DNA of 64,000 bases from Liolophura sinensis (Eukaryota; Mollusca; Polyplacophora; Chitonida; Chitonidae). The translations under genes were made by a program, and so were the position numbers. A model generated the notes under the pieces. It did no database searches and was not told the DNA's origin. It saw only the letters and a program-made list of their open reading frames with translations. Location: NCBI RefSeq assembly GCF_032854445.1, contig NC_088295.1, forward strand, positions 20,387,385-20,451,384, read 5' to 3'. Below are positions 11,834 to 62,217 of the stretch, piece after piece. Every line of letters starts with the position of its first letter. Within the stretch, counting starts at the first letter, position 1.

Positions 11834-11914
11834 TCAGTTGAAATGTATGTAATCTTTCCCCTCACACAGGTGGAGAGAACTCAGATTCACTTCAAACCCA
11901 CCACCTGTTAGGTC
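11834..11914 (-). CDS. B3GNTL1: B3GNTL1 exon 12 with stop
   Basis: Acceptor CAG ends at 11915 after a T-rich tract. It reads [20 protein letters not shown], then DYIHFN and TGA (11836-11834). It matches the human end DLTGGAFEDNLRSLHL very well. Confidence 0.92.
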
Positions 11915-14900
11915 CTGAAAAAAAAATGTACAACCTGCACCTACCAGACTTAATCCTTTACAGATTGCTCAACTCAGAAGTTACATTAACAGATTCTGCT
12001 GATTCTGGTTGAAAACACATTTCGTTTAAAATCCCAAGATCGTGTAGTGTCTTTCCATGAGTAATGTCCTGTCCAGCTTGTGTTATCACATTGGCATTTG
12101 ATTTTGTTACAGTATAAAACATCCCAAACTACTATTTCAGACCTAAGACAAAAATCTTCAAGCTGGCCGTGGTTCAGCTAGCACTTGGAAATATGAGGCT
12201 GTTTCTTCCAAACCTAAGATGGTTCAACCAACGCTTGGCATAATTTACAAGCGTTGCTTCCCCTCATAGAGGGATTGAAAGGCACTAAACAAATAATGAT
12301 CATGAGAAATGTCTTACCATCTTAACACAAATGATGAGAGGGGGCTGAGCCTGGGTGAAGTGTACAATAGGCACCTTGGGTTTAGGCAGTTCCTAAGAAA
12401 CATGGCATATTGACAGTACATTTCATAGTGATGTTGCTATCATTACATGTAATTATACATGGGGGCCTCCGTGGCTCAGTCGGTTAAAGCGCTGGCGCAG
12501 CGTAATGACCCAGGAGTCTCTCACCAATGCGGTCGCTGTGAGTTCAAATCCAGCTCATGCTGGCTTCCTCTCCGGTCGTACGTGAGAAGGTCTGTCAGCA
12601 ACCTGCGGATGGTCGTGGGTTTCCCCCAGGCTCTGCCCGGTTTCCACCCACCATAATGCTGGCCATCATCGTATAAGTGAAATATTCTTGAGTACGGCGT
12701 AAAACACCAATCAAAAAAAAAAAAAAAAATTATACATGTAGCAGAGATATTCTAAAAGTTTATGTTCATCATTGTTAGCTCACACCGGATTAATACAGGT
12801 TACATCACTCTCTTACAAATTACACCTTTCATGTCGGACATTTCAACAGTATGTATTTGCTATATAAATTTGTCATTTTAACAGTATATTCCAATTATGA
12901 CTTAAAATTCATGAGTGATGTTAAACAATGAAATAAGTTCTGCTGATACTTACTGAAGAGTCCTCAAAAGTGTAGAACTGTTTCTGGATTTTCTTCTCAT
13001 CAACATCACAGAAGTTGACAACCTAAAATGAGAATAATACGTACTGCATAATTAGAGAATAAATGCTGACAATGATTTTGCCAAGGTACATGTATGTTTC
13101 ACAAAACTTCACTCCTACAGGTGTTGATATACAAATCTCTGATCTTCAAGCAATGCTGTATCGGCACTTGTGTAAGACACTGACCTTCTTACGGTTTAAA
13201 TCCGAGAGAGACCGATAGAGTTTTCTCCCTTGTTTACCAGCATTCCAAATTGTAAATGTTGACCATTTGGATAATACCATCTTCTCCAAAAATTTCACTC
13301 GTAGTTCCCATATGGTATCCCTGGCAACCACATCAAAAACAACATACTTAAGGATGTATTTTAATGAATGTATTTGATGATATGACTGATTACTGGTTTA
13401 ATTAGTGTCTACCATCATACTTAGGAATCCGTCAGATTAAAAAAGATTGTCATGCACATAATTATGGCATCAGTAAGTTGTCCAAATTTTGCAAAGCTCT
13501 TGATACTGACTAAGGCTACTACTGATACGCACATGAACACAAATAAAATACGCTGAAATAAAACACAATGAAATATAATTTTTGGACTGTTTTATGGTAA
13601 TTTCATTTTCAAAAAATTGACAGAATAAAGTTGACATATTTCCCATAAGAAAACTGGCATAGAATGACAAGCCTAGATATATGTAATTATGTGCTACATT
13701 TAATTTGTAACCCAAGCTGATAAACTTCTCCCGACTTAAGAGATAAAGACTGAAGTCAGAACATGCAATGCTTACTCTAACACGGAGAATGTAGTAGCCT
13801 CTGGATGGTACCTGTACATCAGTAAGTCCTGCTGTACCAGCCTTAACTCTCCCCCTAACTCCAGGTGTTTGTAGAAAAATATCAGGTCTTCGGGAGTACC
13901 CTATATCAAACGTGTCACTAGCATCAATTCTGATACAGCAATTTACATCTGTGCTGACTGACAACTAAAGCAGGACAACGGGATGTTGTTTGAGTCCCAT
14001 AAAAACAGATACATGTACACATATTAATTTACATCTTTGTGGACTAATATCAAAAAAGAGGATATGGAATGCTGTTACATGAGTATACAAGAAAATCCAA
14101 TAACAACTGTGTTATGAAAATTTTAACTTAAAAATAAAATTTATTTCTCTATCCTATTTTACCTTTCCCCTCTCATCAAATCCTCCAACAGCCAGGTATG
14201 CCTCCCTTGAGCAAAACCAGGTGGGCATAATCAGCGTGGGGCCATGAGAGGTGTAAGCCTGTCAGGGTAATGTCTTCATGATAACCAGGTTATAATCTAT
14301 ACAAAGGCCTACGGTTCTTCAGACACAAGTTGCATTAAAAGCTGAGTGAAAGTTATTAAACCACTTGAGATTAATATTATGCCACAGTTAAATTTTAAAA
14401 TCATACTAAGACACTGTAAGATGCAGGCATAAAGCTATAGAACAGAAAATAGGTGATTTGAGATATAGTGAGAGAAAATTGTGCTCCTGATAGTGACAAC
14501 TAATAAATGTTGCTAGTACATCTATTACAAGTTCTTGATAAAGTTCCATCATCTTTATATGTAAATACACTAAATACAACAGAAAGTGTAGCAGTACTGG
14601 TTACCGAAAGACTTACTTGTGTGTACAACTGCTCAGGTGTGAGATTGTTAGCCCAGTGTGTATACCTGACAGTTGACCCCTCGGGTAACCGATGAAACTG
14701 ACAACCCACAAGCTGAAATAGAACCAGCAGTTAAGAATAAAATGACACTCACAAATGAACTGCTAGTGTCATCTATCACCTTGCACTGAGCCGTGGAATG
14801 TTCTGGTTGATGTTAATTCATATAAAATTGTATTGTAGGATTCAAAAAAATGGATTTTCATACTAGTTTTTATATCTGTACGAATGTGTTGTGATATCAC

Positions 14901-17900
14901 TAGTTTAAAGTGAAAGACAGCATCTGAATAATGTTTACGTCCACTGAAAGCCCACCATTCAAAGTTAAACCCGCATTCAATATTTTTTTTAGATTTTTTT
15001 CAACCCAGGGAAAGTTTAGTGAAACTTCGTCTTGTGACAGCTACAGCGCCTCTCCAGACAGCAAGGTGACATCACGTTTACTCTAGCTCTCTAACGTCAA
15101 AGGTATTTCCCGTATAATAGCCTAAGCAGTAGCCTATGGCATATTATAGCTGTGTTCTTTGGCGATGAAGGACCAAGTCATAAATAGCTATCTCGGAAAT
15201 TGGACATACTGGACGAATGCTTGAATGCATACAGTAGGCCTAATATATCATATATACAGTTTACAAGAAGCCTACAGATGCGCGGCCAGGGTATTGACCT
15301 AGTAGCCTCTGGTGGGGTTGTTTTGGTACTGGTAATTCTGACCCCTATTAAATGTTTACAGACATTAGACAATAGGATTGTTGTACAAGTAGATTCATGC
15401 TCAGTTCTGACACAAATGGAAATAAATCTAAGCACAACGTAGGCTGATCTAGGCATCTGACTGTCGCTGGATTTTATTCTTCAATTTTGTAGCTGTGGCT
15501 TCTAAGATGCAGTGCTAACTTAGTTATCACGGGCGTCAGATATAGTACCTCGGCTTAAACCCTGCATTTCAATATTTTTTACTGTATTTTATAAAAAAAA
15601 AAAAAAAAAAAAAAACATCCCTTGTATGTGAGAAAGACAAAGGGCAAAATTTCTAAATCCTTCACTTCTAATAAATTCAGAGAACAAACACTATATCAAA
15701 AGATTTGATTAACCTTAAGCACTGTCCGATGAGATGCCATCCTCTCATTTTTTCACTCACTCTGATATTTGTTACTTAACAACTACGTGCTGACTAAACG
15801 CTAATATGAACAACAAAAAATGTATTTGTATTATTTGAACAGCCTGCCTATGTAGGCCTAAGGTTTACTGGGGAGATAAATGCGGTTTGGGCTGGTATGC
15901 TGTTGTGTGACATAATTTGTGATACCGTTGTTGAATATTACACGGCTTGTAAATCAACTGATTTACGTCTGTTGTGGTCCGTAAATGGTACAGACCTGTC
16001 CTACAACACTGTGTGAAATGGCCCTTTTCCTACATGTCACTTCATGGAGTAAATGGATATAGGCTACGTCACATATTTTGCCGTGCAACCTAACAGCAGC
16101 AATGTGTTTGATTGGATAAAATTCTCAAGATGGCGGCTTTGATTCACCCCAGCCATTTGTGGAGTACTGTAATTTTTTTATACATGTTATTTGGTGAAAT
16201 CTCTCTAAAATAAAGTAGGAAACTTTTTAGAAAACTTCAATCCTGTTTTCAATTGAAATATGCTTTAGCCAGGTGCTGTCTTGTCCTTTGAAGGCTAGAC
16301 AAAAGTGTATTCTTACTGCTCTTGCATCAACCTGAGTCGTTCTCAGTTGCTGAGAGATTCTATCCTGGTGCATAACATCATCCTGAAATAAATAAATAGT
16401 GGTGATAATTATTTGTATCACAATGAGGTTCTAAGTCTGTATTCAAACAAGATGTGTATTCCCTCATATCAGTCCCTGGCTTTTACCTTTAGGAATCCTG
16501 CATGTATTTTGATGATCACTAATTTATTGATTTATTTATCTATGTGATTGTCATTTAATGCTATGATCAAGAATTTTTCACTTTAATATACCGTACGATG
16601 GGAGTCAGTATTATGGGTACAGAAGACTGGAGTAAACTAATGACCTTTGGGAAGCAACTGACAAACTTTTTCAAGTGTGATGTACACCATATTAGCAGAA
16701 GACAAGTGGTATTCAATGCCAACCATTAAAGGTCACCAAGACCTCCCACAAACAAAGCAGGAGAATCTGTAAAATATACATTAACTGAATGAATTTCAAT
16801 TTCTCAGAACTTTATCTAAAGGTAAAAGGTGACCCATAAGTGTAAAAATAAAGTTCAACAAGTAAATGTATGCAAAAGTAGACAATACATCACATTTGAG
16901 ATGATTAACTTTGTGCAAAAATTGTTTCAGGGTTATGCAGACTATAGTATAAATAGTATATAGTATAAATGTGTCATAATGGTTGTCTCCCTTTAACTGG
17001 GACTGTATACATTATATATGTACATATTACACTCAGCTTTCCAAAATTCAGCACTTTTCTATGTATACCTGTTGTTTTGAGATGTGTGGAAGATTGATGT
17101 ATCACTAGATCACAATGGTAAGTTCATGTGGTCACAGTCTCTCCATATTTTTTTGATTTCCAATTAAACCTTCAATCACTAAAGACTACTCCAAACCTGG
17201 AAAGCCCATTACATATATACTTACTGCATCAAGAAAACACAGATACTTTCCTGAACTCTGTTTAAATGCCTGGTTTTTAGCATACCCCACTGAAACGAAA
17301 AAGAAATCGACACACAAGAGACATGTTTTCAGCTGTTCATTAAAATCTAGTTAATGTACTACCACCATCATATCACATTTAAATCAACTGTCCTTTTTCC
17401 TTATGGGTGGTCTACAACTACTCCACTCACCACCTGAGCACTGCAAGTCAACTTAACAATACTAATGTATGATACACATAATTCATATAAGGCTAAACCA
17501 CACAAAATGTTATTGAGGTACTCTTTAAAAATACTGATGTGACCACCACTCCTAAATCTGACTGTCACTTTTTTATTATCAACATTAGCAATTTTGATAA
17601 CTGCCTGAATCACTTATCACTGAACCACAGATTTCATTTATATTGACTTCAATGCCACATACCTGCCACATACCTGGTAAAGGATGGCAGTTGACTCCAT
17701 GTAATACAGTTCTTCCATCCATAAATCTGATTGCCAACATATAATTAAAATATTTTTGACCATAAATAAATAAATACATAAATAAATAACAAACCTCCCT
17801 TTGGACTGCCATTTTCATTGTCACTTCTTGTTACAACTACAGCTCTCTTCTCAAGTTTCAACCTCCAGTTCTCCAAAATATCCATTGATGAATCCTGTAA

Positions 17901-20163
17901 CATCAGATAGTGCTCAATAACTGGCATAACTATGCTACCAACCCTTCAAAGATGGACAGGCCAGACAGGCCCGCTGTGCATCACTATGCTACCAACCCTG
18001 TAAAGATGGACAGGCCAGACAGGCCAGCTGCATCAGTATGCTACCAACCTTGTAAAGATGGACAGACCAGACAGGCCTGCTGTGCATCACTATGCTACCG
18101 ACCCTGAAAAGATGGACAGGCCAGACAGGCCTGCTGTGCATCACTATGCTACCCACCCTGTGAAGGTGGACAGGCCACACAGGCCTGCTGTGCATCACTA
18201 TGCTACCAACCCTGTAAAGATGGACAAGCCAGACGGGCCTGCTGTGCATCACTATGCTACCGACCCTGTAAAGATGGACAGACCAGACAGGCCTGCTGTG
18301 CATCACTATGCTACCAATCTTGTAAAGATGGACAGACCAGACAGGTCTGCTGCATCACTATGCTACCAACCCTGTAAAGACGGATAGACCAGGCAGGCCT
18401 GCTGTTCATCACTATGCTATCAACCATGTAAAGATGGACGGGCCAGACAGGCCTACTGTGAATCACTATGCTACCAACCCTGTGAAGGTGGACAGACCAG
18501 ACAGGTCTGCTGCATCACTATGCTACCAACCCTGTAAAGGTGGACAGGCCAGACAGGCCTGCTGTGCATCATGATGCTTCCAACCCTGTGAAGATGGACA
18601 GGCCAGACAGGCCTGCTGTGCATCACTATGCTACCAACCCTGTTAAGGTGGACAGGCCAGACAGGCCTGCTGCATCACTATGCTACTAACCCTGTAAAGG
18701 TGGACAGACCAGACAGGCCTGCTGTGCATCACTATGCTACTAACCCTGTAAAGGTGGACAGACCAGACAGGCCTGCTGTGCATAACTATGCTATCAACCA
18801 TGTAAAGATGGACAGGCCAGACAGGCCTGCTGTGCATCACTATGCTACCAACCCTGTTATGGTGGACAGGCCAGACAGGCCCGCTGTGCATCACTATGCT
18901 ACCAACCCTGTAAAGGTGGACAGGCCAGACAGGCCTGCTGTGCATCACGATGCTACCGATCCTGTAAAGATGGACAGACCAGACAGGCCTGCTGTGCATC
19001 ACTATGCTACCAACCCTGTAAAGATGGACAGGCCAGACAGGCCTGCTGTGCATCACTATGCTACCAACTCTGTAAAGATGAACAGGCCAGACAGGCCTGC
19101 TGTGCATCACTATGCTACCAACCTTGTAAAGATGGACAGACCAGACAGGCCGGCTGTGCATCACTATGCTTCCGACCCTGTAAAGATGGACGGGCCAGAC
19201 AGGCCTGCTGTGCATCACTATGCTACCAACCCTGTAAAGATGGACAGACCAGACAGGCCTGCTGCATCACTATGCTACCGACCCTGTAAAGATGGACGGG
19301 CCAGACAGGCCTGCTGTGCATCACTATGCTACCGACCCTGTAAAGGTGGACAGGCCAGACAGGCCTGCTGCATCACTATGCTACCAACCCTGTAAAGATG
19401 GACAGACCAGACAGGCCTACTGTGCATCACTATGCTACCAACCCTGTGAAGGTGGACGGGCCAGACAGGCCTACTGTGCATCACTATGCTACCAACCCTG
19501 TGAAGGTGGACGGGCCAGACAGGCCTACTGTGCATCACTATGCTACCAACCCTGTAAAGGTGGACAGGCCAGACAGGCCTGCTGTGCATCACTATGCTAC
19601 CAACCTTGTAAAGGTGGACAAATTTTGCCTTAGGTGTCTAAATGACATCAAATATCACTTAAGGTGAAGAATATGCTTAGGAGGATACATCAGTGATAGG
19701 GGCCTACACTTCCTGCTTCTTCAGTACAGTTCTAAAATTCTATCTAGTTTTTTTTCAAAATTGCAACAGTTCTTAATTAAGTTTACCACTTTTTCCATTC
19801 TTATATAGACAGTTGCATGACCTACTTTTTACAGCCATATTTGTAGTTCTGACTTGAGTGACACTAGAGTCATATCTCCAAGTCTTTTATTTCTGGTCTA
19901 AAACGCAGGGGGGTGATATCACCTGCAACCCCTGTATCTGTGTCACTTATTTTTTCTCTTTTTACTTATCACTAGCTCTGTGGGACTATGTTTATGCTGA
20001 TTCTGCATAAACATATCCCCACAGAGCTAAGTATAAGGCAATTTACCTGACTGGCATCGTTAAAAACAGACAACTCAAAACGGCCAGTAAAGGTTTGCTC
20101 GTACACCGACTGCAGGCACTGATCCAACCACTTCTCAGCATTGTAAACTGGGAGAATCACACT
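11834..20163 (-). CDS. B3GNTL1: B3GNTL1, putative GT2-family glycosyltransferase (first short exon not settled)
   Basis: Minus-strand exons in coding order: 20163-20047, 17894-17795, 17289-17225, 16382-16317, 14712-14617, 14258-14163, 13900-13776, 13320-13185, 13022-12954, 12392-12318, 11914-11834. All are GT-AG and phase-consistent, giving 341 residues to a TGA; the human protein is about 361. It begins [15 protein letters not shown], the GT2 nucleotide-sugar fold start. A FNDAS motif and a DxD-type CFLDADDVM follow. Next come [33 protein letters not shown] (the ED of the catalytic-base region) and [16 protein letters not shown]. The product is annotated in other species as UDP-GlcNAc:betaGal beta-1,3-N-acetylglucosaminyltransferase-like 1; its real acceptor is not well established. 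No signal peptide or membrane segment is visible, unlike Golgi GTs. Confidence 0.93.
12318..12392 (-). CDS. B3GNTL1: B3GNTL1 exon 11
   Basis: Acceptor TTCTTAG ends at 12393, donor GTAAGA at 12317. It reads [20 protein letters not shown], then ICVKM. It is separated from exon 10 by an intron carrying a SINE. Confidence 0.9.
12451..12738 (+). mobile_element. Full-length tRNA-derived SINE with target-site duplication
   Basis: The head is tRNA-like, with A box TGGCTCAGTCGG at 12472-12483 and B box AGTTCAAATCC at 12541-12551. The body runs to a tail with CTTGAGTACGGCGTAAAACA and poly-A ending at 12729. It is flanked by an 11-bp direct repeat AATTATACATG (12451-12461 and 12728-12738), so it is a fairly recent insertion. 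It lies antisense to B3GNTL1 in the intron between exons 10 and 11. SINEs move using LINE enzymes supplied in trans. Confidence 0.88.
12954..13022 (-). CDS. B3GNTL1: B3GNTL1 exon 10
   Basis: Acceptor TTTTAG ends at 13023, donor GTAAGT at 12953. It reads [20 protein letters not shown], then DSS, matching human FCDVDENKI. Confidence 0.92.
13185..13320 (-). CDS. B3GNTL1: B3GNTL1 exon 9
   Basis: Acceptor TGCCAG ends at 13321, donor GTCAGT at 13184. It reads [20 protein letters not shown], then [18 protein letters not shown]. This is the best-conserved C-terminal block of the family. Confidence 0.93.
13776..13900 (-). CDS. B3GNTL1: B3GNTL1 exon 8, PED motif
   Basis: Acceptor ATATAG ends at 13901, donor GTAAGC at 13775. 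It reads [20 protein letters not shown], then [20 protein letters not shown]. The true frame differs from the longest open frame through this stretch. Confidence 0.9.
14163..14258 (-). CDS. B3GNTL1: B3GNTL1 exon 7
   Basis: Acceptor TGACAG ends at 14259, donor GTAAAA at 14162. It reads [20 protein letters not shown], then [12 protein letters not shown]. 32 codons, phase 0. Confidence 0.92.
14617..14712 (-). CDS. B3GNTL1: B3GNTL1 exon 6
   Basis: Acceptor TTTCAG ends at 14713, donor GTAAGT at 14616. It reads [20 protein letters not shown], then [12 protein letters not shown], closely matching the human IGCRVRR..RYTRWINQLTPEQL region. Confidence 0.92.
14893..16292 (+). repeat. Long dispersed repeat, copy 1
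   Basis: It matches 44497-45606 in the same orientation over nearly its whole length. Shared blocks include GAAAGTTTAGTGAAACTTC, AGCAGTAGCCTATG, GGCGATGAAGG and TTTTAGCCAGGTG-like words. This copy has about 330 extra bases near 15210-15590, ending in a poly-A run. No coding potential is seen. It fills most of the intron between B3GNTL1 exons 5 and 6. Confidence 0.8.
16317..16382 (-). CDS. B3GNTL1: B3GNTL1 exon 5, DxD motif
   Basis: Acceptor TTTCAG ends at 16383, donor GTAAGA at 16316. It reads [20 protein letters not shown], then RA. The opening DD completes the predicted metal/nucleotide-sugar DxD site. A long dispersed repeat ends about 25 bases past its donor. Confidence 0.9.
17225..17289 (-). 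CDS. B3GNTL1: B3GNTL1 exon 4
   Basis: Acceptor TTTCAG ends at 17290, donor GTAAGT at 17224. It reads [20 protein letters not shown], then DA. The DA begins the DADD motif that continues in the next exon. Confidence 0.92.
17795..17894 (-). CDS. B3GNTL1: B3GNTL1 exon 3
   Basis: Acceptor TTACAG ends at 17895, donor GTTTGT at 17794. It reads [20 protein letters not shown] and ends NENGSPKG plus one base. It is split from exon 2 by the 54-bp minisatellite intron. Confidence 0.9.
17940..19620. repeat. 54-bp minisatellite, about 31 units
   Basis: The unit is 54 bases (18 codons). On the plus strand it reads [18 protein letters not shown]; on the minus strand [18 protein letters not shown]. Both are open because the period is a multiple of three. 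Some units lack two bases (CTGCATCAC instead of CTGTGCATCAC), which shifts the frame. Each unit holds the hairpin CAGGCC-AGACA-GGCCTG or a variant. It lies in the intron between B3GNTL1 exons 2 and 3, so it is read as non-coding. Confidence 0.93.
20047..20163 (-). CDS. B3GNTL1: B3GNTL1 exon 2, GT2 N-terminal fold
   Basis: Acceptor TTTTTCAG ends at 20164, donor GTAAAT starts at 20046. It reads [20 protein letters not shown], then [19 protein letters not shown]. 39 codons, phase 0 on both sides. Confidence 0.92.
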
Positions 20164-20165
20164 CT

Positions 20166-22036
20166 GAAAAATTACGCACAATTCATGTAAATCTCTTCCA
20201 AACAGGCATGCATTGGTAACAAGTTGCAAGGCTTGATATCCTGGAATAAGAGGCATTGACTTGGAGTCACTAAACCTAAACTAAACCTTAACCACAAGAT
20301 AATGAACCCCGTAAGTTTACCACGTCAAACATTTGATCACTAGACAGGCCACGCCGGCATATTTAGGTCATGTGATCAAACATTGGAAGTCACATGATCT
20401 ACAAAATACTATAACAAAGTGAGGTAAACGCTGGAAATATGTGTCGAAATTTACTAACGCAGTAGCCTCCCTTATATTAAAGCCCCGTTTGAGCAATCAC
20501 AGAACGGTTGTGACGTACGTCTATCTGGAAGCTGCTGCTTAAACAAGGCGCAGCGAGTAGTGCTTCGTTCAATTTGTATGCTAAAATTAATTTTTGGGCA
20601 CAAAGACATATCCCTTCAGTTCATTAGGCCTTCATGATCTGTGACCCCAATTTTACGAATTAATCTGAATACCCACCACTGCACTGGCTTCCATCTGTTT
20701 CCATTCAGCTACAGTCTCAGCTCCAGACGCTTGTTGAGATTTGACAATGTAAAAGAGGTGTGGCTGGCTAAGTTACCATCCTTACAAAGGCCACATCTGG
20801 TAAGAGTTTGCCATACCATCTCGGTGTTTCAATACTGAAAGCATACACCTACAGGTAAACTTGTAATCATTTCAATACAATCTACTGTATATAGATCAAC
20901 GTCGAGGTTGATTCCAGTAATACATTCCAAGCAGGATCCTGGACAGCTTTCTGGGACAAGCGTTGACATCCGTGCAATGAAACCAATAACGACACTGTTT
21001 ACCTCCAATCCACCTGTCGTGCCTCACGGAAACGGATTTAAGTCATTAGATTTACATTCGCGGAGAGCAGTGGTTTAATTAGTCTGTGGGTATTCCGGCT
21101 TTAAGCTTTGAACGCGAAAAAATCCATTCTAATTAATGGACCCGTCAACTTGCCAATTACTTACTTATTGTCTAGCATCGTTGTATAGGTGACATTGTGG
21201 TTGGAATGTACTGTACTGGTAAGTGCTAACTTCATACAAACGGTTTGGGCTGAACTCCAGTATGATAAGTTCTACCATTGAAGGTCATTATGACATACAT
21301 GACATACAAAGGAAACACAATAGTTCATCGTTTGATCAGAAATAAGAGAGTGGATGCTAAGGGTTCTTCAGTAACATATCAGTCCGGAGCTCGAGAGCTA
21401 CCGTGGAGGGTACGATAGGCGATAGGCCTACCCACTCTACTGGAAGAACACCCAGAGTGAATGTCAATAGCCACTGTTTGCTTACTTTGTCTGGGGGTAC
21501 TTCCCCACTCACGGGGTATCTCTAGTTTGTTTGCTACACAACTCTAGCCAATTAAGACTGTCAACTTTTACCTTTAACCTCAAACACATAACACCTGAAA
21601 TAGCATCATCTCGTCCTGTCGTACTCCAAATCCAATATGGACACGTTCAGAACTAAATTGTAAGCTCCTTCCCTGATTACATGAGCTGGAGTGGCGCAAT
21701 TGTTACATGATGTGAACAATCTGGACGTTATATGAGAAACAGACAATTGACAAACCTTTAACATTAGCAGGTCACTGGCCAGCAAGGTCAGTGAAATGGT
21801 AAACATAGGTATCACAGGTGCGGGATTAAAAAAATGAAGGGCAATGAAGCAAAGATTATGGTGAGTTGACTGGAGGACGATGAAAATTAATTCGTCCATT
21901 TGGTGTTGTTTTAATGAACGAGGAGAATTCTTACTCGCAAAGTGGGATCTGTCTTCTTGGATGCCGCAAAATAGTTCTTTATTTGGGGAAAAGAAATTTC
22001 TTGAAAATTGTTGAATTTGCGAGTTTTATACAGTTA
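20166..22036. other. Upstream region of B3GNTL1
   Basis: Non-repetitive sequence upstream of exon 2, expected to hold intron 1, exon 1 and the promoter of B3GNTL1. A transcription start cannot be placed. Confidence 0.4.
21879..21899 (-). CDS. Tentative B3GNTL1 exon 1 (start codon)
   Basis: ATG at 21899-21897 reads MDELIFI in phase 0 with exon 2, close in length to the human N-terminus before SIILPV. The donor would be GTCCTC, a poor match to consensus. Other short upstream ATGs are possible, and exon 1 could also lie in the 200-N gap. Confidence 0.25.
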
Positions 22037-22236
22037 NNNNNNNNNNNNNNNNNNNNNNNNNNNNNNNNNNNNNNNNNNNNNNNNNNNNNNNNNNNNNNNN
22101 NNNNNNNNNNNNNNNNNNNNNNNNNNNNNNNNNNNNNNNNNNNNNNNNNNNNNNNNNNNNNNNNNNNNNNNNNNNNNNNNNNNNNNNNNNNNNNNNNNNN
22201 NNNNNNNNNNNNNNNNNNNNNNNNNNNNNNNNNNNN
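22037..22236. other. Assembly gap, 200 N
   Basis: Exactly 200 N characters, probably a gap of nominal or estimated size. Reading frames drawn through it are meaningless. Confidence 0.99.
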
Positions 22237-22399
22237 GTCGGATATGTTTCAAACAAATAAACTGTCTCGATTGATATGTAATGGTTCAAGGAAAAGGAAA
22301 AAAATCAGTTCTTCTTCCTTGTCCACTCTTCCCAGCAAACTCTTCGTAATCCAGAACTTAAAATGGGTTAATGAGAAAACATGGGTTATTTGTGTATTT

Positions 22400-22590
22400 C
22401 TTTATTTATTTATTTGATTGGTGTTTTAAGCCGTGATACTTTTTCGACGGCGGCCAGCATTCTGGTGGAAGAAAACAGGACAGAGTCCGGCGAAAACCCA
22501 ATATCATCCGCAGGTTGTTTCAAGGCCTTCCCACGTCCGGTCGAGAGGAAGACAGCATGAGCTGGACATGAACGAAGGCCCCAGTTATAT
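22400..22590 (-). mobile_element. tRNA-derived SINE fragment, reverse orientation
   Basis: It starts with T-rich TTTATTTATTTGATTGGTGT and GACGGCGGCCAGCATTCTGG, the complement of the tail and 3' body of the SINE at 12461. The tRNA-like head is decayed. Confidence 0.65.
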
Positions 22591-22639
22591 GTGTAGGCCT
22601 ATAGCCAGTCTTACCAATGTGTTTCCCATGTAATGGTAT

Positions 22640-25530: not shown

Positions 25531-25532
25531 CC

Positions 25533-25660
25533 TCAGATTTGAAAACCATTGTGTATACTTGTAAGAGATTTGGAAACCATTGTGTATGCTTGTAAGAGAT
25601 TTGAAAACCATTGTGTATGCTTGTAAGAGATTTGAAAACCATTGTGTACACTTGTAAGAG
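25533..25660. repeat. 31-bp tandem repeat, about 4 units
   Basis: The unit is about 31 bases, with core AAACCATTGTGTATGCTTGT. The four units differ by single bases (ATACTTG, ATGCTTG, ACACTTG). Confidence 0.85.
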
Positions 25661-25847
25661 TGGGATGTCAGCTTATATCCGCCATTATGAAAGATACAAT
25701 TGGCTCTGTATAATTCGGCGTTAAAAACGCCACACTAATCTCTTGTTATGTTTGAAGCAAGCTATCCGTATGAGAGTATCAAAACAATACACTGACGGGA
25801 CCCGATGTGGCCGTACAATTTAATTGGGTTTTATTTACTTCAATTAC

Positions 25848-25936
25848 TTCTGATCTTGAACTCACAGCAACTGCTGAGAGGGTACTGGGTCATTCTGCTG
25901 AGCTAGCGCGCTAACCATTCGGCCACGGATGCCATT
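25848..25936 (-). mobile_element. tRNA-derived SINE head, reverse orientation
   Basis: On the minus strand an A-box-like TGGCCGAATGGTT (complement of 25912-25924) and a B-box-like GAGTTCAAGATC (complement of 25852-25863) are spaced as in a tRNA. The tail is degraded. Confidence 0.6.
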
Positions 25937-26219
25937 CAGTATGATTGTGTTTAACTGATGAACACACGAGGTGTTGGTTCAACCCCATCCCGAGACAGTG
26001 CCCTTCAAAATTGTCATGCATCCATACAATGCTCTCGGGACATCAATAGTTCAGTGGTGTTAGGTGGCGGTGCATGGTGTCGTGTGCATGGGTCAATGCA
26101 TTACATGTTAGTTTCTGCCAAAGCCTTTTATTATTTACATTCCGGTTTCCCTTTCCCCCAAAATTGACTGCCGATATATCATTGAGTACGAATCATTCAA
26201 TTGTTTAATCAAGTGTAAC

Positions 26220-26400
26220 TGAATATCTGAGTTGAAAGCGTTGTCATCCTCGCTATCCGGGCTAGAGGGATCAATGGTTCAAATCCCCAGCAATGGTACC
26301 TCCGGCCTTGGGAGAATTTACCTTTAGTCTAGTGGTACAAGCGTGCATGGACTCCAAACCCAGAGATCGCTAGTTCAGATTCCCAGATTTTAACGCCTGT
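26220..26400 (+). mobile_element. Possible degenerate tRNA-like SINE fragments
   Basis: GGTTCAAATCCCC at about 26277 resembles a B box, and TAGTCTAGTGGTACAAGCG at about 26326 resembles a tRNA A-box arm. They are in an order suggesting two decayed heads side by side. Confidence 0.35.
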
Positions 26401-27399: not shown

Positions 27400-27955
27400 G
27401 TGTGCCATCCACTGGAGACAACGCCAAAAGCGCACCATCCACTGGAGACAACGCACGAAAACGTCATCCACTGGAGACAACTCACGAAAACGCCATCCAC
27501 TAAACAAGGCAGGGGTGCGCTATCCACTGGAGACAACGCCAAGGGCGCACCATCCACTGGAGACAACACAAGAAAACGCCATCCACTGGAGACAACGCAC
27601 GAAAACGCCATCCACTGGAAACAAGGCAGGGGTGCGCTATCCACCGGAGACAACACAAGAGGGTGCCATCCACTGGAGACAACGCCAAGAGCGCACCATC
27701 CACTGGAGACAACGCAAAACACCATACACTGAAGACAAAGCAAGAGCGCATTATCCACTGAAGACAACACAAGAGAGCACCATCCATTGAAGACAATGCA
27801 AGAGAGTGCCATCCACGGAAGACAACACAAGAGAGTGCCATCCACTGAAAAAAAAAACGCAAGAGAGTGCCATCCACGAAAGACAACTTGAGAGAGTGCC
27901 ATTCACGGAAGACAACGCAAGAGAGTGCCATCCATTGAAGACAACGCAAGAGAGC
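27400..27955. repeat. About 30-bp minisatellite, about 19 units
   Basis: Units share CCATCCACTGGAGACAACGC, with variable ends (CACGAAAACG, CAAGAGCGCA, CAAGAGAGTG). The left half has GGAGACAACGC units, and the right half has diverged GAAGACAACACAAGAGAG units. It is open in several frames on both strands through its repetition, and no product is implied. Confidence 0.92.
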
Positions 27956-32850: not shown

Positions 32851-32899
32851 CCAGTTTTTGCACGGAAAAAGAATCACATTAAAATGTACATCGCTGCAT

Positions 32900-48600: not shown

Positions 48601-51600
48601 AACAAACTACTTCGTTGGCAAAGGGGGTCACGCAGTGATTTTGAATGTTAAGTTAGGACAACTTGATTCAGTGGTTTAACAGCTATATTACCCTTTTCAA
48701 CTTCACCGCAGCGGTTATGTAACGTATCAGGAAGTGTGTTAATGATTCCGCGGAACGTGACGTCCAGCTATGTCTGAACGCAAATGTTAACTCATACTTC
48801 CTGGCTCATTTTCTCCACAAAGAGCCCAATATGACGAAAATATCTAAAGGTTTCAGAAAGATTTCATTTTCCATATCCATGTTTGAATAGGCACTGGCCT
48901 AAAGCCAGAGAGGATGCTCGGCTTCTCTGTTGCGTCCGTCCTGGACGGTTGGAGGTGTTTTGTGGAGGATTTGATACCATTTGCTCAGAGGTTAGGCTTG
49001 TCGATTTATTCTGGACGGGAGAAATTTCAGGGGAACTGGCTGTTTGGATGCAACAAATAGAGTAATACCCAGAGGAGTGAATGGAAAGGCTTAAATTGGA
49101 TCAGCTACTTTGCTCAACGTGATGACTGAAGGTTTGCGGAGAGTCCTTTAGAGTCAGGTGCCACGGGTTGTTCCCTGAACTGGTTACGGTGAGAAGACGC
49201 GGTGGTAGCCTCACCACTTCTAGCATCACGCCTCTTAAAACAGGCGATCACTGTCCGAGGGAGCTGCTGAGGTCGGCGATTCGCACGAGTTGTTTAACTT
49301 CCATAACGAAATAGCATTCTCCACGTATGGCCATCCTAACTGACCACAAGCGATGACCGCCCTGCACAACCCTCTTTGTTGTACGATTCATGACACAAGC
49401 CTTGTCCACTTCGGAGGGAAGGCGTTTGCCGTTGACCTTTGACATAAAATGTTTGTATCTTGCCCCATGTTCGGAAGACAAACGGTTTGGTATTCCGCGT
49501 GGGCCGCTTGTTTCATTTTGACCTCTTTTTGGAACAGCTAAAAAAAATTCATGATACATGAGAGAGAATTATGTGTTTTATAACTGACGTTATATCATTG
49601 GCGGTACATAAAAGTGCGATGCTGTAATTAACATTTATACAGTTGCGCAGTACAGTAGCCGTAATACAACTTTTTCCATACACGAACCACCTGGTCAGCA
49701 ACCACCCGCCTGATGACATGATAACTAAGTGTGTTATACCATGCTAGCGGTGCATGTTCTGTATATAGTCTATAATCGACGTGACCCGAGTTATACACAT
49801 GTACTGTATAAAGGTCTTCAATCTATAGATATTCTTAACATTTGCATTAGAAGTATCTGCGTTGCCGATAAAAGAATTCAAAATGCACGAACCTGAAATA
49901 TATTCCTGTTTATGATCGAAATAATTGCTAATATTAAATGCCAATGATTATATGAGAAAATAACGCGTTTTATACAAATTATAATTGTAAATGATGAAGA
50001 AAAAAGGCAATGCAATAAGTTCAGTTGTGTCAAGTCTCAGTGATTAAGTACACCAGCTTCGCTCAAGCAAGCAAATGTATATGTAAGTGTGTATATCTAT
50101 CGTTGTGCGCGGAATGTTAAAGGGATTCCTTGCTCCGATGAAAAAGTGACCTTATTCATACGTCTGACACAAGTCGAAAATAGCTTGGGTCTCTTCAGTA
50201 TTCGACAATCAATTTTATCTTCGAACATCAGCATCTGTGTAGAAAAGTGATATAAAACCCCTGATAACATTCTGCGTGACGTAATATTATCATAGAACAA
50301 GGCATTCACCTGTCGACCGATTCGCTTCACTGACAACACAATATACCTGTTGCTGTTTGGTGGCTTTTCAGGCATAACTGCCCATGGCTATAATTGGTAG
50401 GTGATTTAGCTCGATTATCAGATGAAGTAAATTTACACTGTTATCTAAAGAGAAGCGCGAGCGACAAGGGTTTGCTTGTTTCTCAGGAACACAGGCGTAC
50501 GGCAGGGAAGCCAATGTCGCCACAACTCTTTTCAACTGCCACATTATATACTTACATACAATGTAGTTACGTGCTGTGCTTAGCTTTCCCAGGACTTTTG
50601 CGGACATATATTTATTGTGCTTAAGTAAATCCAACGGGATACTATACATATGAAAATAAAGGTGTCGCTGGGTTTTATTCAGCCAAGTAGGCCCACTCTC
50701 TCTCGTCTTCAGCTACATGGAATTCTTCCAGTTTGCACCCTAGCGGTAATATTTTACAGGCAGATTTCATCTTATCCATTCAATCATTTTTCTTTTCATT
50801 ACAAGTTTTGGTGTAATTTAACATCTCTGGCATTTGTTCTATACGATACGATTTTTTTTAAAGTGAAAGATAAAGTACAAACACTCAGAAAACTATCTGT
50901 GATACCTTCAATTATTTATTTTTTTTTTCAATATTTCTTACAGATCATCAGATGCAGCAATATATTTAAATTCTAGGGTGGGTTAAACAGCATATCGGTA
51001 GTGTTCGGCGATGATCATGTCGCGCGATATCCTTTTTTTTGCATGTGTTTAGTCAACTCTCATTATATTCAGTTTTTATAGTTTTATATATCTATACTCG
51101 TACTAAGTACAGAACTTTTTTAGCACAGTAATAGGCAAATTTTTTTCATTTATATGATTGTTCAACACAATACAACACAACACCGGTACTCAATTAGACA
51201 ATGATTGCCAGTTTTTATGAGACGAGGGAATGGGAGTGCTCAGAAGAAACTGGGTCCACCTTTATGGCAAGTCACTGACGAACTTTTCCCCATCTTTCAT
51301 AGATTTAGGCGCCATATCATGGCAAGGAGTCCTCGGCGGATGTACTACTGCGCTAACGTGGTCGACATATTCTCTCCTCGTGCAGAGTCCTGTGACCTTC
51401 CGTCTACCACCTCTCCTGAAATCTGATATTGACGACAGATTAACGTAAGCCATAATGATGAACCAAAACGAGGGTGTCATCGTAAGCGGTAACATGTTGT
51501 TGTTGAAAAGTTGTTGTGACTAAACGAAGCGGGAAGGTAAATAATGGCCACATTTCATAATATTCGTTGATGGAGATTTGGTTTTAAGAATGGAGAATAT

Positions 51601-51911
51601 TTATGGTTCACAGGTGGGCTATCGGTGACGCCAGATATGGCTGAAATAGTTTTCATTTCGTTGGAAATACGAGACTCGGTAGTCAACACCATATCTCTGT
51701 AAAAGTTATGTGAATATTAATGAAGACACATGACCACCTCGACCGATGGAATCTCTATTCTTTTTGTCAAGGCATTTTGCTTCGTTGACTAACACGGATT
51801 ATATCACTTTTTCGCTCGTATCAGAAAACCAGCTGTCTTTCAACAGATAACTGGAATGATCTGTCGTGAAGAGACTAATTACGAACAATGAGAGCGGGGA
51901 ATCTAATTCTG
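45607..51911. other. Non-coding intergenic stretch
   Basis: No supported gene. One minus-strand frame at 49248-49559 is discussed under findings as a weak exon candidate. Confidence 0.35.
49248..49550 (-). CDS. Unrecognised open frame, possible terminal exon
   Basis: A minus-strand frame of about 100 codons, entered just after a T-run and TAG acceptor-like site (about 49551-49543). It reads AVPKRGQNETSGPRG, later ARYKHFMSK, and stops at 49248. The spacing of basic, Gly and HF residues faintly recalls the C-terminal strands of fibroblast growth factors. No matching upstream FGF exon was found, so this may be chance. Confidence 0.12.
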   Translation of the reverse strand, partial: EFFLAVPKRGQNETSGPRGIPNRLSSEHGARYKHFMSKVNGKRLPSEVDKACVMNRTTKRVVQGGHRLWSVRMAIRGECYFVMEVKQLVRIADLSSSLGQ

Positions 51912-51980
51912 TCTGGGATTGAACCGCCACCTTTTGTGCCTCGTGCTCAGCATTCGCGCGCCTTATTCACTCAGCCATGT
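51912..51980 (-). mobile_element. tRNA-like sequence, probably a SINE head
   Basis: On the minus strand, TGGCTGAGTGAATAAGG (A-box region, complement of 51961-51977) is followed at tRNA-like spacing by GGTTCAATCCC (complement of 51915-51925). Arm pairing looks imperfect and no clean acceptor stem was found. Confidence 0.5.
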
Positions 51981-54900
51981 ACACAAGCAATGTATATATA
52001 GAAGAATGTGTTTGTATGCCTAACATAAAATGCTTTCACGAAGTCACGGGATAGTTCGGTCTTTCTTTGGATGTAAGTGTCCAGCTGGTCAGAATGAAAT
52101 GATCATATAGATAACAAGCGAACACCCGCGGACAAAATGTGTGCAGGACTGGAATAAAGAGAAAATGATCACAGAGTCGCGTTTACTTCATCGGTGCCTG
52201 TATACAACTAAATCCACCGTGAAGGGAATGTAGAAAACATAGATCAAGTTAAAAGGCAAAAAGTTTAATATAGAAACCATGACTGTGAGTTCCTTTCTTC
52301 TGTGCTCATTCAACATTTCTCAGCCACACCTGGGGAGAATTATCCACCATTGTTATGAGTGCTGACATCATAGGGGTGGCCAAATCACCACCAGTTGTGT
52401 CACAGGCGGGGGTGTCGGGGATGATACCCCTAGCTCTCTCTGTATACGTAACACCACCGTCTCTATCTCAGATCACCAGCAGGTTCGGAAACAAAGAATT
52501 ATTTTGGTAGCCCCATGAATCTATACAGCCGTATACAAGGCCGAGAGAAAACTAAACATTTGTACTTGGCCGATTGTCTTTCGTGCTATGACAACTGCAA
52601 ACATTCCTCCCCCACCACACGTGCCGGGTAGCAGAGCCTAGAGATGAACATCACGGGGAGATAAGCCAGCGATCTGTTCGGCAGACCCCAGAGTGAATAT
52701 CTTCACACCCCTCCAATCAATGTCAAACACAGCACACCAGCATACACTCCTCAACAGCCATATTTGCCCACACCTGTGAGTTGACGAACATCCAACGGCG
52801 GGAAGTGACAATAACTTAACTTTTAAATCACTTTGAAAAAGATAGTGCAAAGAATATGTACCCCACGTCACATGTCAGAAGAAACCTTCGGTTCTGTCCC
52901 TGTTTATGAAATTGCATAAAAAAACAATCTAAATAATTCGTGTTTTTGTAACTCAACATAACAGCTTTTATGAAACATTAAAAAGATGTAAAACAAACCA
53001 CCAAAATAGATATCTAATATATTTGTATACTCAGTATATATGCACAAGCCAGTGTAAACTTACCAACTCTCACGAAATATAATACAATGAGGTGAATTGT
53101 TCAAAAAGGGAAATTTGTGCTCATATACAGGCTTTTTCCATGTGTCGAAAAAAGGGAATTAAACTAAGCCACATGTATGTTATACGTCCGACAGTGAGTA
53201 TGCGCAAAACGATGCATGGCGACACGGAAGTTTTAAAAGGGATTTGAATTCGGGTTTTATGTATCAATTGTCAGACATGTCACTGTTAAGTGGAGTTGAA
53301 ATCCGGTTTGATTACCATGCAGAGGCACAAATATAGGCTTACATGTGCCTATCGGGCCACATTAACACCCGTTCAGTTTACAGCCCATATATCCCGTGTC
53401 AGGACATAATCTCCAGGGACCTGATTACGACGTGAATAAAACTTACGGGTGTCAAACACTTGTCAACTTCAAGTAGTCGACTAGACTAGATTTCCAGTCA
53501 ATCCTAGCTATTAGCATATACCAATCCCACTCGGTATTGTATTTCTAGACAGTAAATAACGAAATATCACGTCTGCACTGTTTAGTGCTGAAAAATTGGA
53601 CATATTAATGCAATACTATTTACTTGATGGGTGCATGTTGAACGCCGCAATCCTAGACGTATATGTTGACAGCGTTTGCACAGAAAAAACTGAGCATTAC
53701 CAACTGCTTTACCAATGATAGAGTGTATGGAAATTAAGAATATGTGGGGATTTTTTGCATGGTGAACCGTTCCATTAAGGTGCACTATTGGCTTTTCTCG
53801 GGCAGACCGATCACGTGAATCGCAAATTCAAGTTTACAGTGATGCTCCAATGTTTAAAATCTCGCGTGATAATGCATGAAAAGTGGATAGTGCACTAGCT
53901 CAACTGTTCGTGGAGTCAAACTGTTGACGATTTTATTTTGGCGTTCCGATGCATGTATAGTTCGCTCTCATAAAATTTTTTTTTTTTGCATTGCAGAACA
54001 GACGAAACACAATACTAAAAATTCCTTAGTTGTATTTAATTCTGAGACGAACATCGGCAATAAACCAATGGAAAGTAATGTGGTGATTTACTGTGTGGAA
54101 TATGCATCAACAACCAAAACACTGAGATTCGATGATCTGCGTGAATGCCGCAGTGATCTTTGCATCATCCAGTGTTTGCAATAAACTTATATTAAGATGT
54201 CTTAGAGCTGGTCAGTGACATTACACTGCATGCTGAACGTGGTTGTGTCCAGTTCCGTGCTGCAGATCAGTATAGAAGCTCAACGTTATGCATGTGTCAG
54301 TCGATTATACCTTATCATCCGATCAGGTAACTATTCCATATCTGCATGGTATGTTCGGCGATCTGAAAAAAAAAACAACTTATATTCATGCTCGTTCATA
54401 AATTTCTACGACGTACGATTTCATTTGTCAGCTATTATAGCATTACGTATGATAGTGATCAAGAAAATTACATGCTATTTGACTGCAAATACGGTGACGA
54501 ATAGCTTACTTGTGAATGCCATCCTCACCACGCATGGTTCTGACTTACATGGTCATTAACTGAAGATTTGTTTGCATTAACAATAAACAATTTTTTCTTC
54601 TAAAACCTGGTTTGAATGCGTATAAGCAATTCCGACCCATTCAAGCTTGGGCTATTTTTTTGTTTTTCAACTGTTTCTTCCACCCTACTTCTCTCGTAGT
54701 CTTGGTGACAATCATCGGTCGACAACTGCCGTATATATATATGACGGCCGTGCAATATAGGTAGTCATCATATGCACTCCATGTAGATCCCTTTCCTACA
54801 ACCAGTATCATACAGGCCTACATACTGAGCATATACCCTACATGCGGGGTGAAAATGTGTCAAAGGTTTACTAGTCTACACCGGTTTCCTTCACCCACCA

Positions 54901-55779
54901 AACTGATCGTCCTTGTACCTGTAAAATATTCTTAAACGACAATGAAATACAAGCAAAATATCATTTCGAATATAGACAACACATCTGAGGATGCGTTTAA
55001 AACCCATCCATCTCTTAAAAGGCAAAGCCAGTATATTAGACTGTAGCTTTTACCTGAAGCGTGAATGTAAACGCGTTTCTGTTAATCTTTCGTATGGCAA
55101 AGAACAATGAATTCGCCACCAGCATGAATTTGTTTTTAAGTCTATCGACAGATCGGTATCTACATATTTATGAAGCTTTATAGCAGCATTGTTTGATGAT
55201 TTGATGGGTTGCAGGAAAACAGAAACAGAATCCATGCATAAGAAGTGTACAGACACACTTTCCCAATATATATAGGCTGGAGATCTACGTGATCGATGAT
55301 TATACATGCTATGTGATAGTAGTCAAATGATGGACGTGAAAGCGGGCCAATTCAAGAGTTATGCCCCATTAGTTTATACTTAGTTTATAACAATTAGAAT
55401 GTATAGGCCTTTATACAGGTTCTTGCTCAGTCTTAAACGTCAGCTTTCTACCAAAAAAATTCAATACTCCACAGCAGTTTTGTGCCTATTACAATACGTA
55501 ACTTTTCAGTTGGGTGTTAGAACACTGAGTGTTGTGAGCAATCATGTGGTCGATTCAGCCATTCTCACAGAGGTGTGTCAAGTGTCAGAAACAGTTCACT
55601 AAAAATTATGTGTTTGTTTACAAATGCCATTTTCAGTTTGTTCGGTTTGAAAAGTTGTTTTAATATACAAAACTGTTTGTACAGCGTTGATTTTTATGGT
55701 TTTATGTGCACAGCTAGTGAATGGTGCCTTTCCACGCAGAGCTAATCACCCTGTTTTGACTATGGACTGGTCTGGTCGG
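51981..55779. other. Non-coding intergenic stretch
   Basis: AT-rich, with no supported gene. A short (AT)n run is at about 54732. Confidence 0.35.
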
Positions 55780-55862
55780 GACCACCTCGCGTGTCACCAG
55801 TGCTGGGGGACCGATGAGGGCAGATAAATGCGCTTACTGGCTGAGCTATCAGCCACTTGTCG
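55780..55862 (-). mobile_element. Possible tRNA-like SINE head
   Basis: Minus-strand TGGCTGATAGCTCAGCCAG (complement of 55837-55855) followed by TAAGCGC resembles a tRNA D-arm with A box. The B box is not clear. Confidence 0.4.
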
Positions 55863-55971
55863 CTGAGTCGGGCTAGCTGTGTGTAACGCTCATAGTGGAT
55901 GTGTACGGCACGGCGAACTGAGCAACACGCTACAGCTCTCCCTCACTGTCCGATCTCTGTTGGCGTTTACC

Positions 55972-55998
55972 ATGGGAGTGTTACCGGGCAAGATGTAA
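55972..55998 (+). promoter_or_regulatory. Short upstream ORF in the likely meteorin 5' leader
   Basis: ATG to TAA, nine codons including the stop (MGVLPGKM), with a CCATGG start context. It could lower translation of the downstream ORF if it is in the mRNA. The transcription start is unknown. Confidence 0.3.
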
Positions 55999-56095
55999 GA
56001 ATATGTCGAATTCCAAAAAGAGATCAGATCGTCTACATTTTGTATCTGTGTTAACTTTTAAGGAAGGAACGTGAATTTCACCGACAGTTGTGGAA

Positions 56096-56238
56096 ATGTT
56101 GACAATGTGTGTGGGGGGGTTCCGATTGGTGAGGGAGGTGGTGCTCTGGGCAGTGCTCCTCGTCTCCCTCGGACTCGGGGTGTGGGGCCGGCCCGCTGTC
56201 ATCCAGCGTTACTGTGACCAGTGCGAATGTATACTGAG
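56096..56238 (+). CDS. METRNL: Meteorin-like exon 1, signal peptide
   Basis: Starts ATGTTGACAATGTG and ends at donor GTACGT (56239). It reads MLTMCVGGFRLVREVVLWAV, LLVSLGLGVWG, then RPAVIQRYCDQCECIL. The hydrophobic core and GVWG/RP cleavage-like site fit a secreted protein. Confidence 0.78.
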
Positions 56239-60433: not shown

Positions 60434-60494
<61 letters not shown>

Positions 60495-62217
60495 ATGCAC
60501 TGTATTATGAATGCAACACATGATTGCCAAAGATTTAAATCTGTATTGTATATCCAAGCTAGAGAACAAGCTAACCAATTTTAAGTCTGCTTTCACAGTC
60601 TACATATACAGTCTCGTCTTTGATTAACCTAAAATTAATCCATGTTTGACTTCACAAGTTTGTCCAGGACATTGTCCCAGGTAATGGTGCCCATTAAATG
60701 CCATTTAATATCAGTGTGTTTGGGGCAGGGTAGTGGGCTCCAGGGGACTCTGCAAACAAACCCAGGAATGTGGAGCATACACCTAACATGCCCTGCACGT
60801 CGCCACCCCTCGTGCTTGCATACCTCTCCCCAGGAGTGCTTTTGTCCCAACCAACTCACTCTAGACCAGAAAAATGATATCACAACTCTGAAAAGAAATC
60901 TGAGAGAAAAAAAACTGGTCTGAAGGGCGTGCTTATTGAGCATCTGACATAGCGTCTAGCGAGGTGTGTCATCTGAATGATCTGGATCTGAGTGGATGTG
61001 TTAGGTTACATTTGATCTTCTAATTGTGACAATACAACGCCACAGCTAAGCTCTAGCTTTACCAAGTTGGAATGCTTCTCTCAAGGGTATGGTTAGGAAT
61101 GGGTGGGTAATAATCCAATAACTTCAAATGACTCTCAGACATGCAAGCCAGCAGTTTAAGCTACAGGCCTATTGTCATCAATCTATTTGGCCCGGATTAG
61201 GTTTACTTGGACTCCTGGATTTATATTTATGAGTCAGGTTCTTGTGACATGCCAGCAAGATATTTTTAAACTTGTGAAAACTTATTGTACACTAGTTAGG
61301 CTTAAGCTTCCTCATGGAGAAACCAGATATCATCAAACTAGCATACCCTGTTTCAAATTTTACTTTAAAAGCCCACTCACATACACGCAAAGGCATGCAG
61401 GTCTGCTTTCTCGGATAAAGTTTGAAACACTTCAGAAATAAGTTTAAGCTACAGCTACTAAGGTGCTTCAGTACATAAATTGTGATTTTTCGAAGAATAT
61501 TTATTTGTATTTATTACTACCGATGTTTTAAATCGTTTTAGTTAGAAAATCTGTGGTCTTACACTTTGCTGTATTGTTTAAACTGCTTATCTTTGCATGC
61601 CATTTGAAAGAAGCTATACATTGTCCCCCACTCTCACCACTCCTGACATCCTCACTAAGAGGAACATTGTCAGCTGTATTATATTGCAATAATCATAGTT
61701 TTCTGAAGATGTTCATGTATCAGTAAGAACTGTTTTATTTATTTATTTTCTTTTGAGAAAATTTCTTTCACTTATGTCTCTCTACTGTGACTGTTTTGTG
61801 AAGATACTAAAATCATAACTGTTTTGTGTGTTTTCAGTGAGGACACATCTGAACCTAGAGGAATAACCAATGTTAAAGCCAAGTGCAAAGAAGGCCATGT
61901 GGAGTGGTCTAACCCATATGGGGCTGTCCGAGTGGAGATAAACCCAGGTTATCCTGTAGATTTCAAAGGATGTGTGCTAATCACCAGTGAATATACCCGT
62001 GTTAAAGTATCTCAGGAAACACGAATTGGATTAAAACACATACAGACAGTAGAAGGTGTTTCCAAAGAAATATGTTTGACTGCTTCATCTGCACCTATAA
62101 TGCTGTATATAGAACTAGTCCCAGAGTCGTCAGTGGTCTTCAAAGGTGTACCCAGGGTGGTTATAGACTATGATATAGAGAGACTACAGTCAAAACTGTA
62201 TTTTGATCCATTAGAAG
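56096..62217 (+). CDS. METRNL: Meteorin / meteorin-like secreted factor, first two exons
   Basis: Exons 56096-56238 and 61838-62217, joined in frame through a split Ser codon; the second exon leaves in phase 1, so the gene continues beyond the window. Residues 1-31 form a signal peptide (VVLWAVLLVSLGLGVWG). The mature part has DQCEC, then an ITNVKAKCKEGHVEWSNPYG segment and AVRVEINPG. This matches the vertebrate DRCSW...C.EGA.EW.YP.GAL pattern. The later C-terminal, NTR-like part is missing here. Family role: secreted factors acting in neural/glial development and, for METRNL, in metabolic and immune signalling; invertebrate roles are little known. An in-frame stop at 56072 supports the start at 56096; the fourth codon is also ATG. 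Whether this is METRN or METRNL cannot be told from sequence; the symbol rests on gene order. Confidence 0.8.
56239..61837 (+). other. Meteorin-like intron 1
   Basis: A 5.6-kb intron without recognised exons. It holds the (AT)n microsatellite at 60436-60492. Open frames inside are short and chance-like. Confidence 0.7.
60436..60492. repeat. (AT)n microsatellite, about 28 repeats
   Basis: An uninterrupted AT dinucleotide run in intron 1 of the meteorin-like gene. It is likely to vary in length between individuals. Confidence 0.97.
61838..62217 (+). CDS. METRNL: Meteorin-like exon 2, conserved N-terminal domain
   Basis: Acceptor TTTTCAG ends at 61837, donor GTAAGT at 62218. It reads CKEGHVEWSNPYGAVRVEIN, later GCVLITSEYTRVKVS, LTASSAPIMLYIELVPESS and VVIDYDIERL. 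Cysteines in CKEG, GCVL and ICLT match positions conserved in the family as I recall it. Confidence 0.85.

Follow-up and report, generated by a model that had tools for sequence, protein, structure and literature searches.

A divergent B3GNTL1-meteorin gene pair in the chiton Liolophura sinensis, probably retained from bilaterian ancestors

We analysed a 64,000-nucleotide stretch of the genome of the chiton Liolophura sinensis (the window, C1:20387385-20451384) in which a B3GNTL1 gene on the minus strand and a meteorin gene on the plus strand lie head to head. The genome searched comprises 609 Mb in 632 contigs, of which C1, at 96.4 Mb, makes up 15.8%. Exons and features past the window edges are numbered in window-extended coordinates, and the stretch examined in total measures 244 kb (-90000 to 154000). 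A sequence-only reading had proposed the two genes as divergent neighbours, and our exon models confirm this arrangement and put the two start codons 35,763 bp apart, N run included. Its outer coordinates also hold: 11834 is the end of the B3GNTL1 stop codon and 62217 the end of meteorin exon 2. On balance, we consider it probable that the genes are an inherited pair of old bilaterian neighbours, kept mainly by slow rearrangement.

The B3GNTL1 coding region (11834..20332, minus strand) comprises 12 exons, with the start codon at 20330-20332 and a TGA stop at 11834-11836. Eleven of these (exons 2-12, including exon 8 at 13775..13900) were placed between 11837 and ~20163. Exon 1 (20321..20332), near a change point of the CpG ratio at 20237, was predicted by eye; its sequence, ATGTTTGACGTG, encodes MFDV, is followed by a GTAAAC donor and reads in phase 0 into exon 2. 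A strict search pattern, ATG...GTN followed by a GTRAG donor, had missed this exon. The matches to that pattern far upstream, at 49215 and 48012, are roughly as many as chance alone would produce (1.1 per 36 kb and strand) and were rejected, the MFDV exon with its GTAAAC donor at 20321 being preferred. A hand-spliced partial protein matched Glycos_transf_2 (PF00535) at E 2.1e-23, placing a GT2 catalytic domain in the product, and a 345-residue model matched GT2-type structures in the PDB with a best E of 4.1e-14. The name B3GNTL1 follows from agreement by eye with the human sequence, orthology along the whole length, C-terminal part included, being putative. In a genome search with the 345-residue model at E up to 1, 11 of 12 matches were the gene's own longer exons and the twelfth lay on contig C6 at E 0.18; B3GNTL1 is single copy, with no other match below E 0.1. 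Intron 2 contains a minisatellite identified by Tandem Repeats Finder (17924..19620; 54-bp unit, 31.6 copies, ~90% alike), which stops ~30 bp ahead of the exon 3 acceptor and could influence B3GNTL1 splicing.

The meteorin gene reads on the plus strand and runs on beyond the window. Exon models and genome matches place exon 1 at 56096..56238, encoding a hydrophobic N-terminus, by eye a candidate signal peptide, and the motif CDQCEC. By the same evidence, exon 2 at 61838..62217 encodes the N-terminal domain, CUB-like by family. Intron 2 starts at 62218 and fills the rest of the window (62218..64000), while exons 3 and 4 were found in the flanking sequence at 71071-71127 and 74963-75282. The span proposed from the letters alone therefore holds two of the four exons, exons 3-4 falling outside it and the window. 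Among many possible splice combinations we chose the one that preserves the cysteine pattern, yielding a product of 299 amino acids with 12 cysteines after residue 32. The C-terminal half matched Meteorin (PDB 7tlh) and Meteorin-like (PDB 7tlw) with 66.9 bits and E 1.5e-17 each, with identities of 45/111 and 45/120, respectively; all cysteines in the aligned stretches are common to both sequences (5/5 and 6/6). Following the published description of METRNL, in which a CUB domain is combined with an NTR domain (PMC11756984), we assign the C-terminal half to the NTR domain, and this NTR-like domain with its cysteines places the protein in the meteorin family. The N-terminal domain gave a weak match to Meteorin (PDB 7tl6; 47 residues, E 0.019). 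A single-sequence structure model of exon 2 was all beta and of low confidence (mean pLDDT, the predicted local distance difference test score, 64.1). Its best PDB match in Foldseek was a dioxygenase (E 6.5e-4), and in VIA-align cupins and seed globulins filled many of the rows (best Z 7.9); with this low-confidence model, Meteorin or CUB was named in none of the best 50 rows of either search. Given the low confidence of the model, the outcome of the fold searches is no argument against membership of the meteorin family.

With regard to its vertebrate relatives, the gene is no closer to METRNL than to METRN, the bit scores being equal. A genome search with the meteorin protein at E up to 10 returned four matches, all four its own exons, and meteorin is single copy at that sensitivity. 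Since the scores are equal and there is a single copy, the gene is best seen as a putative co-ortholog of METRN and METRNL, the pre-duplication gene. The relation to METRNL suggested earlier thus stands as co-orthology with both vertebrate genes and falls for METRNL alone.

Across the 244 kb examined, the observed-to-expected CpG ratio is sharply bimodal, at ~0.2-0.4 over genes and ~0.8 between them. It measures 0.30 over B3GNTL1 (0.37 without the minisatellite), 0.29 in the left flank and 0.21-0.24 over the meteorin body, against 0.84 in the spacer and 0.80 from 78 to 154 kb. Change points lie at 20237, beside B3GNTL1 exon 1, at 56650, just inside meteorin, and at 78250, ~3 kb past the meteorin stop; across the whole stretch such points outline transcription units. 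A bidirectional promoter was rejected as an explanation of the head-to-head order, given the distance between start codons and the change points at 20237 and 56650, the one next to B3GNTL1 exon 1 and the other just within meteorin.

The intergenic spacer (20333..56095, 35,763 bp) showed no gene when scanned for codon usage with a model built from a few local exons, a method that is weak for short exons. The scan found 49 frames in the spacer with a best score of 7.6, compared with 43 frames and a best of 7.8 in the 75.3-114 kb stretch, and its power is low because B3GNTL1's own exons score at most 8.0. The evenly high CpG ratio is the better argument for a gene-free spacer. A transfer RNA search of the window under bacterial settings found none, and no Rfam family reached its gathering score there. 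A stretch of ~76 kb 3' of meteorin (78300-154000) likewise has no detected gene; within it, a reverse-transcriptase-like fragment near 120124 was recognised by eye and had no Pfam match. Tandem arrays occur in the spacer at 25535-25660 (31 bp x 4.1), 27390-27957 (29 bp x 19.6) and 41223-41681 (55 bp x 8.3). An element of ~240 bp resembling a short interspersed element (SINE), for example at 12475-12715 and 72188-72428, accounts for 25 blastn pieces in the 244 kb, query copy included, and its closest full-length copy is 92% alike.

The spacer also contains a run of exactly 200 N at 22037..22236, the sole N run in the 244 kb. By its round length it is probably a scaffold gap, the alternative being a masked stretch; in a different assembly, also scaffolded by Hi-C, each gap is written as 200 N (PMC12134992). 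If the run is a scaffold gap, B3GNTL1 and meteorin belong to two successive contigs; in either case, the spacer may in truth be longer or shorter than 35,763 bp. Two contigs could then have been misjoined or misoriented here, so that the adjacency would be an assembly artefact, in keeping with the gap convention of the other assembly and with the position of the run between the two genes. When the 20 kb to the left and to the right of the run were compared, two SINE-like matches were all that emerged, and neither bridged it. The CpG ratio, taken per kb, is alike on the two flanks: left of the run it is 0.67, over it 0.71, and right of it 0.78 and 0.88, save for one 300-bp window on the right at 0.23. 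A random misjoin would, moreover, hardly restore human neighbours in human order. We therefore retain the adjacency, with a reservation for the N run, and regard an artefact as improbable.

In human, the order at 17q25.3 is TBCD - B3GNTL1 - METRNL - telomere, as given in papers on deletions and translocations there (PMC4472615, PMC10334611, PMC13323050), and in these sources no protein-coding gene lies telomeric of METRNL. The published order bears out the sequence-only reading, which had given B3GNTL1 and METRNL as adjacent on 17q25.3: in human, as here, B3GNTL1 neighbours a meteorin-family gene. The two loci differ in setting, the pair lying 20.4 Mb into C1, a contig of 96.4 Mb, here and METRNL being subtelomeric in human, and in the number of meteorin genes, one here and two in human. 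We take the human B3GNTL1 and METRNL strands to be divergent as well, with a spacing of ~28 kb.

To place this adjacency in a chromosomal context, we located eight families chosen as neighbours of vertebrate METRN or METRNL, a selection rather than a complete set. Three derive from 17q25.3, and five were taken from the SSTR2/3/5 blocks, whose 30 families (Table 3 of PMC3560075) include METRN, NDE, RHOT, TTYH, FSCN and RHBDF (iRhom). These blocks lie on human chromosomes 7, 16, 17, 19 and 22 and were duplicated early in vertebrates (PMC3560075). On C1 we found RPTOR at 2.07 Mb, NDE at 6.41, RHOT at 17.87, TTYH at 22.25, FSCN at 23.03 and TBCD at 35.24 Mb, with the B3GNTL1-meteorin pair among them at 20.4 Mb. 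FSCN had a third, weak match, which we assigned to the same locus because it lies 10 kb from the other two. For iRhom neither the genome nor the controls yielded a match, and this family is thus uninformative and excluded. FN3K, which lies in 17q25.3 in human, has two loci, C10:7788932 and C7:24868815, both of which show a stop inside the matched stretch when read without introns. In all, six of eight loci (7 families) fall on C1, between 2.07 and 35.24 Mb. Among control loci, 2/13 proteasome loci (nearby exon matches merged by eye) and 1/19 GT2 clusters (counted by script) lie on C1, the latter being the poorer control as many sit on C11. The enrichment gives Fisher p 0.018 against the proteasome loci and binomial p 3.3e-4 against C1's share of the genome. 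For this small chosen set, a linkage group of common ancestry with the vertebrate METRN paralogon is supported. The slow rearrangement suggested earlier fits this shared linkage.

The order within the C1 linkage group is mostly scrambled. An old linkage group accounts for part of the observation, and adjacency in the same orientation goes beyond it. By hand arithmetic, a full shuffle of ~1,400 genes (at an assumed 41 genes per Mb over 35 Mb) would yield the same adjacency and orientation in about 1 of 3,000 cases, making re-association unlikely. The two genes could nevertheless have met again by chance within the conserved linkage group, separately here and in vertebrates. With six of the eight METRN/METRNL-linked loci on the contig that carries both genes, such a re-meeting would need intrachromosomal moves only. 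Identical neighbours in divergent order in both lineages are what the shuffling estimate speaks against, and we hold this explanation to be very improbable.

We instead favour a history in which a chromosome of the bilaterian ancestor would already have carried B3GNTL1 and meteorin side by side in divergent orientation; the first third of C1 would descend from it, as would human 16p/17q with related regions. On the chiton side the adjacency would have lasted, and on the vertebrate side it would have come through the genome duplications at the METRNL copy now seen in human. It may have persisted mainly through slow rearrangement, with no breakpoint falling in the spacer, and each gene would have its own promoter, independent of the other, with probably broad expression. 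We infer, then, that the adjacency is ancestral rather than re-formed, that the join at the N run is right, that the spacer is gene-free, that expression is broad and that no constraint holds the pair. Several observations weigh against this history. The comparison covers two species, so that independent re-association is possible; the adjacency probably rests on a scaffold join and not on continuous sequence; and the spacer may harbour a short-exon, non-coding or poorly expressed gene. FN3K, off C1, counts against the linkage, and 14.8 Mb separate B3GNTL1 from TBCD, which adjoins its 3' end in human, indicating that local order is not generally kept. The shuffling estimate itself cuts both ways, as it implies that inertia must be slow or that something holds the pair together.

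What might hold the pair is a genomic regulatory block: meteorin would have long-range enhancers within the spacer or the introns of B3GNTL1, selection would act against breaks, and B3GNTL1 would be a bystander. Meteorin does reside in gene-poor DNA, with 36 kb upstream and ~76 kb downstream free of detected genes, a setting that suits long-range regulation; the adjacency exceeds what linkage alone would predict by our hand arithmetic; and conserved pairs kept together by cis-regulation have been described, with uncorrelated expression of bystander and target in human blocks (PMC8851819). The CpG-depleted meteorin body is a signature suggestive of broad expression, unlike that of a tissue-restricted target, and TBCD is not beside B3GNTL1 in the chiton. 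In oyster, methylated genes vary little between tissues (PMC3840415), and by analogy with this mollusc both chiton genes, with their CpG-depleted bodies, are probably broadly expressed, so that a developmental regulatory block is not favoured. We rate such a block as unlikely. The shared regulatory block raised earlier alongside slow rearrangement also found no support: the starts are ~36 kb apart, both bodies are CpG-depleted, and in human germinal-centre B cells METRNL was detected at a low level and B3GNTL1 was not (PMC13323050). As to a block with a bystander, this B-cell difference is neutral. A related proposal gives the pair bilaterian age and has selection maintain it: the 36-kb CpG-rich spacer would contain long-range meteorin control DNA, with B3GNTL1 in tow. 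The pair would then date from the last ancestor shared by protostomes and vertebrates and would have survived both the scrambling seen at TBCD and MARF1 and the vertebrate genome duplications. We consider this version, too, rather doubtful. On the evidence of one genome, either inertia or a regulatory tie may have preserved the adjacency.

To the left of the pair come MARF1, a BTB-kelch gene (BACK, E 4.3e-29) and UTP6. The 3' part of MARF1, with its LOTUS/OST-HTH repeats, occupies 1..9117 on the plus strand according to Pfam matches, the RRM lying upstream of the window. OST-HTH was matched above the cut-off at E 1.4e-13 and 1.5e-9 and below it at 0.0011; MARF1_LOTUS (E 1.6e-5) and RRM_MARF1 (E 4.5e-5) were both below the cut-off. 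The last long frame, 8362-9117, is assumed to be part of MARF1. MARF1 and B3GNTL1 are arranged tail to tail, and the tail neighbour of B3GNTL1 therefore differs from that in human 17q25.3, where it is TBCD. UTP6 was assigned from a match to UTP6 in PDB 7mq8 (E 1e-6) and from UTP6_C (E 1.7e-5, below its cut-off). Within the UTP6-like exon span, the minus strand carries an open proline-/serine-rich frame (-65162 to -64593) with no Pfam match above cut-off, which may be a nested gene or chance. In human, MARF1 and UTP6 presumably lie on 16p and 17q.

Unrelated genes that have stayed neighbours since early animals are reportedly known as ancient metazoan microsyntenic pairs from Irimia et al. 2012. 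A survey of 49 animal genomes found hundreds of ancient blocks of this kind, 256 of them new at the bilaterian ancestor compared with 45, 48 or 56 in shuffled genomes, and vertebrates lost 84% of those bilaterian-ancestor blocks (PMC8851819). With so many ancient blocks, one more kept pair is to be expected, and one still kept in human would belong to a minority. The published blocks need three or more genes, whereas ours is a pair known from two species, and neither B3GNTL1 nor meteorin is named in the main text (PMC8851819). The wnt7-atxn10 regulatory block from the same study resembles our locus in that a secreted signalling factor sits beside an unrelated gene in gene-poor DNA. In the chiton pair any regulatory element is hypothetical, and the meteorin body has a CpG depletion that suggests broad expression. 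In the literature searched, with subscription journals and supplements outside that search, the pair is not described as a conserved pair. That search also found no paper joining B3GNTL1 with synteny; the papers naming B3GNTL1 and METRNL together appear to concern human, mouse and pig genetics. The pair is thus probably a new case of the ancient microsyntenic pairs, a class already known.

Research on Meteorin and Meteorin-like treats them as neurotrophic and metabolic hormones of vertebrates. A co-ortholog present as a single copy in an invertebrate would provide a pre-duplication reference for the meteorin family, and the presence of the human METRNL neighbourhood at the chiton gene suggests that METRNL, of the two vertebrate copies, retained the ancestral position. 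B3GNTL1-meteorin also offers a concrete pair for telling slow rearrangement from regulatory constraint, and its importance would be much greater if the adjacency proved general in bilaterians.

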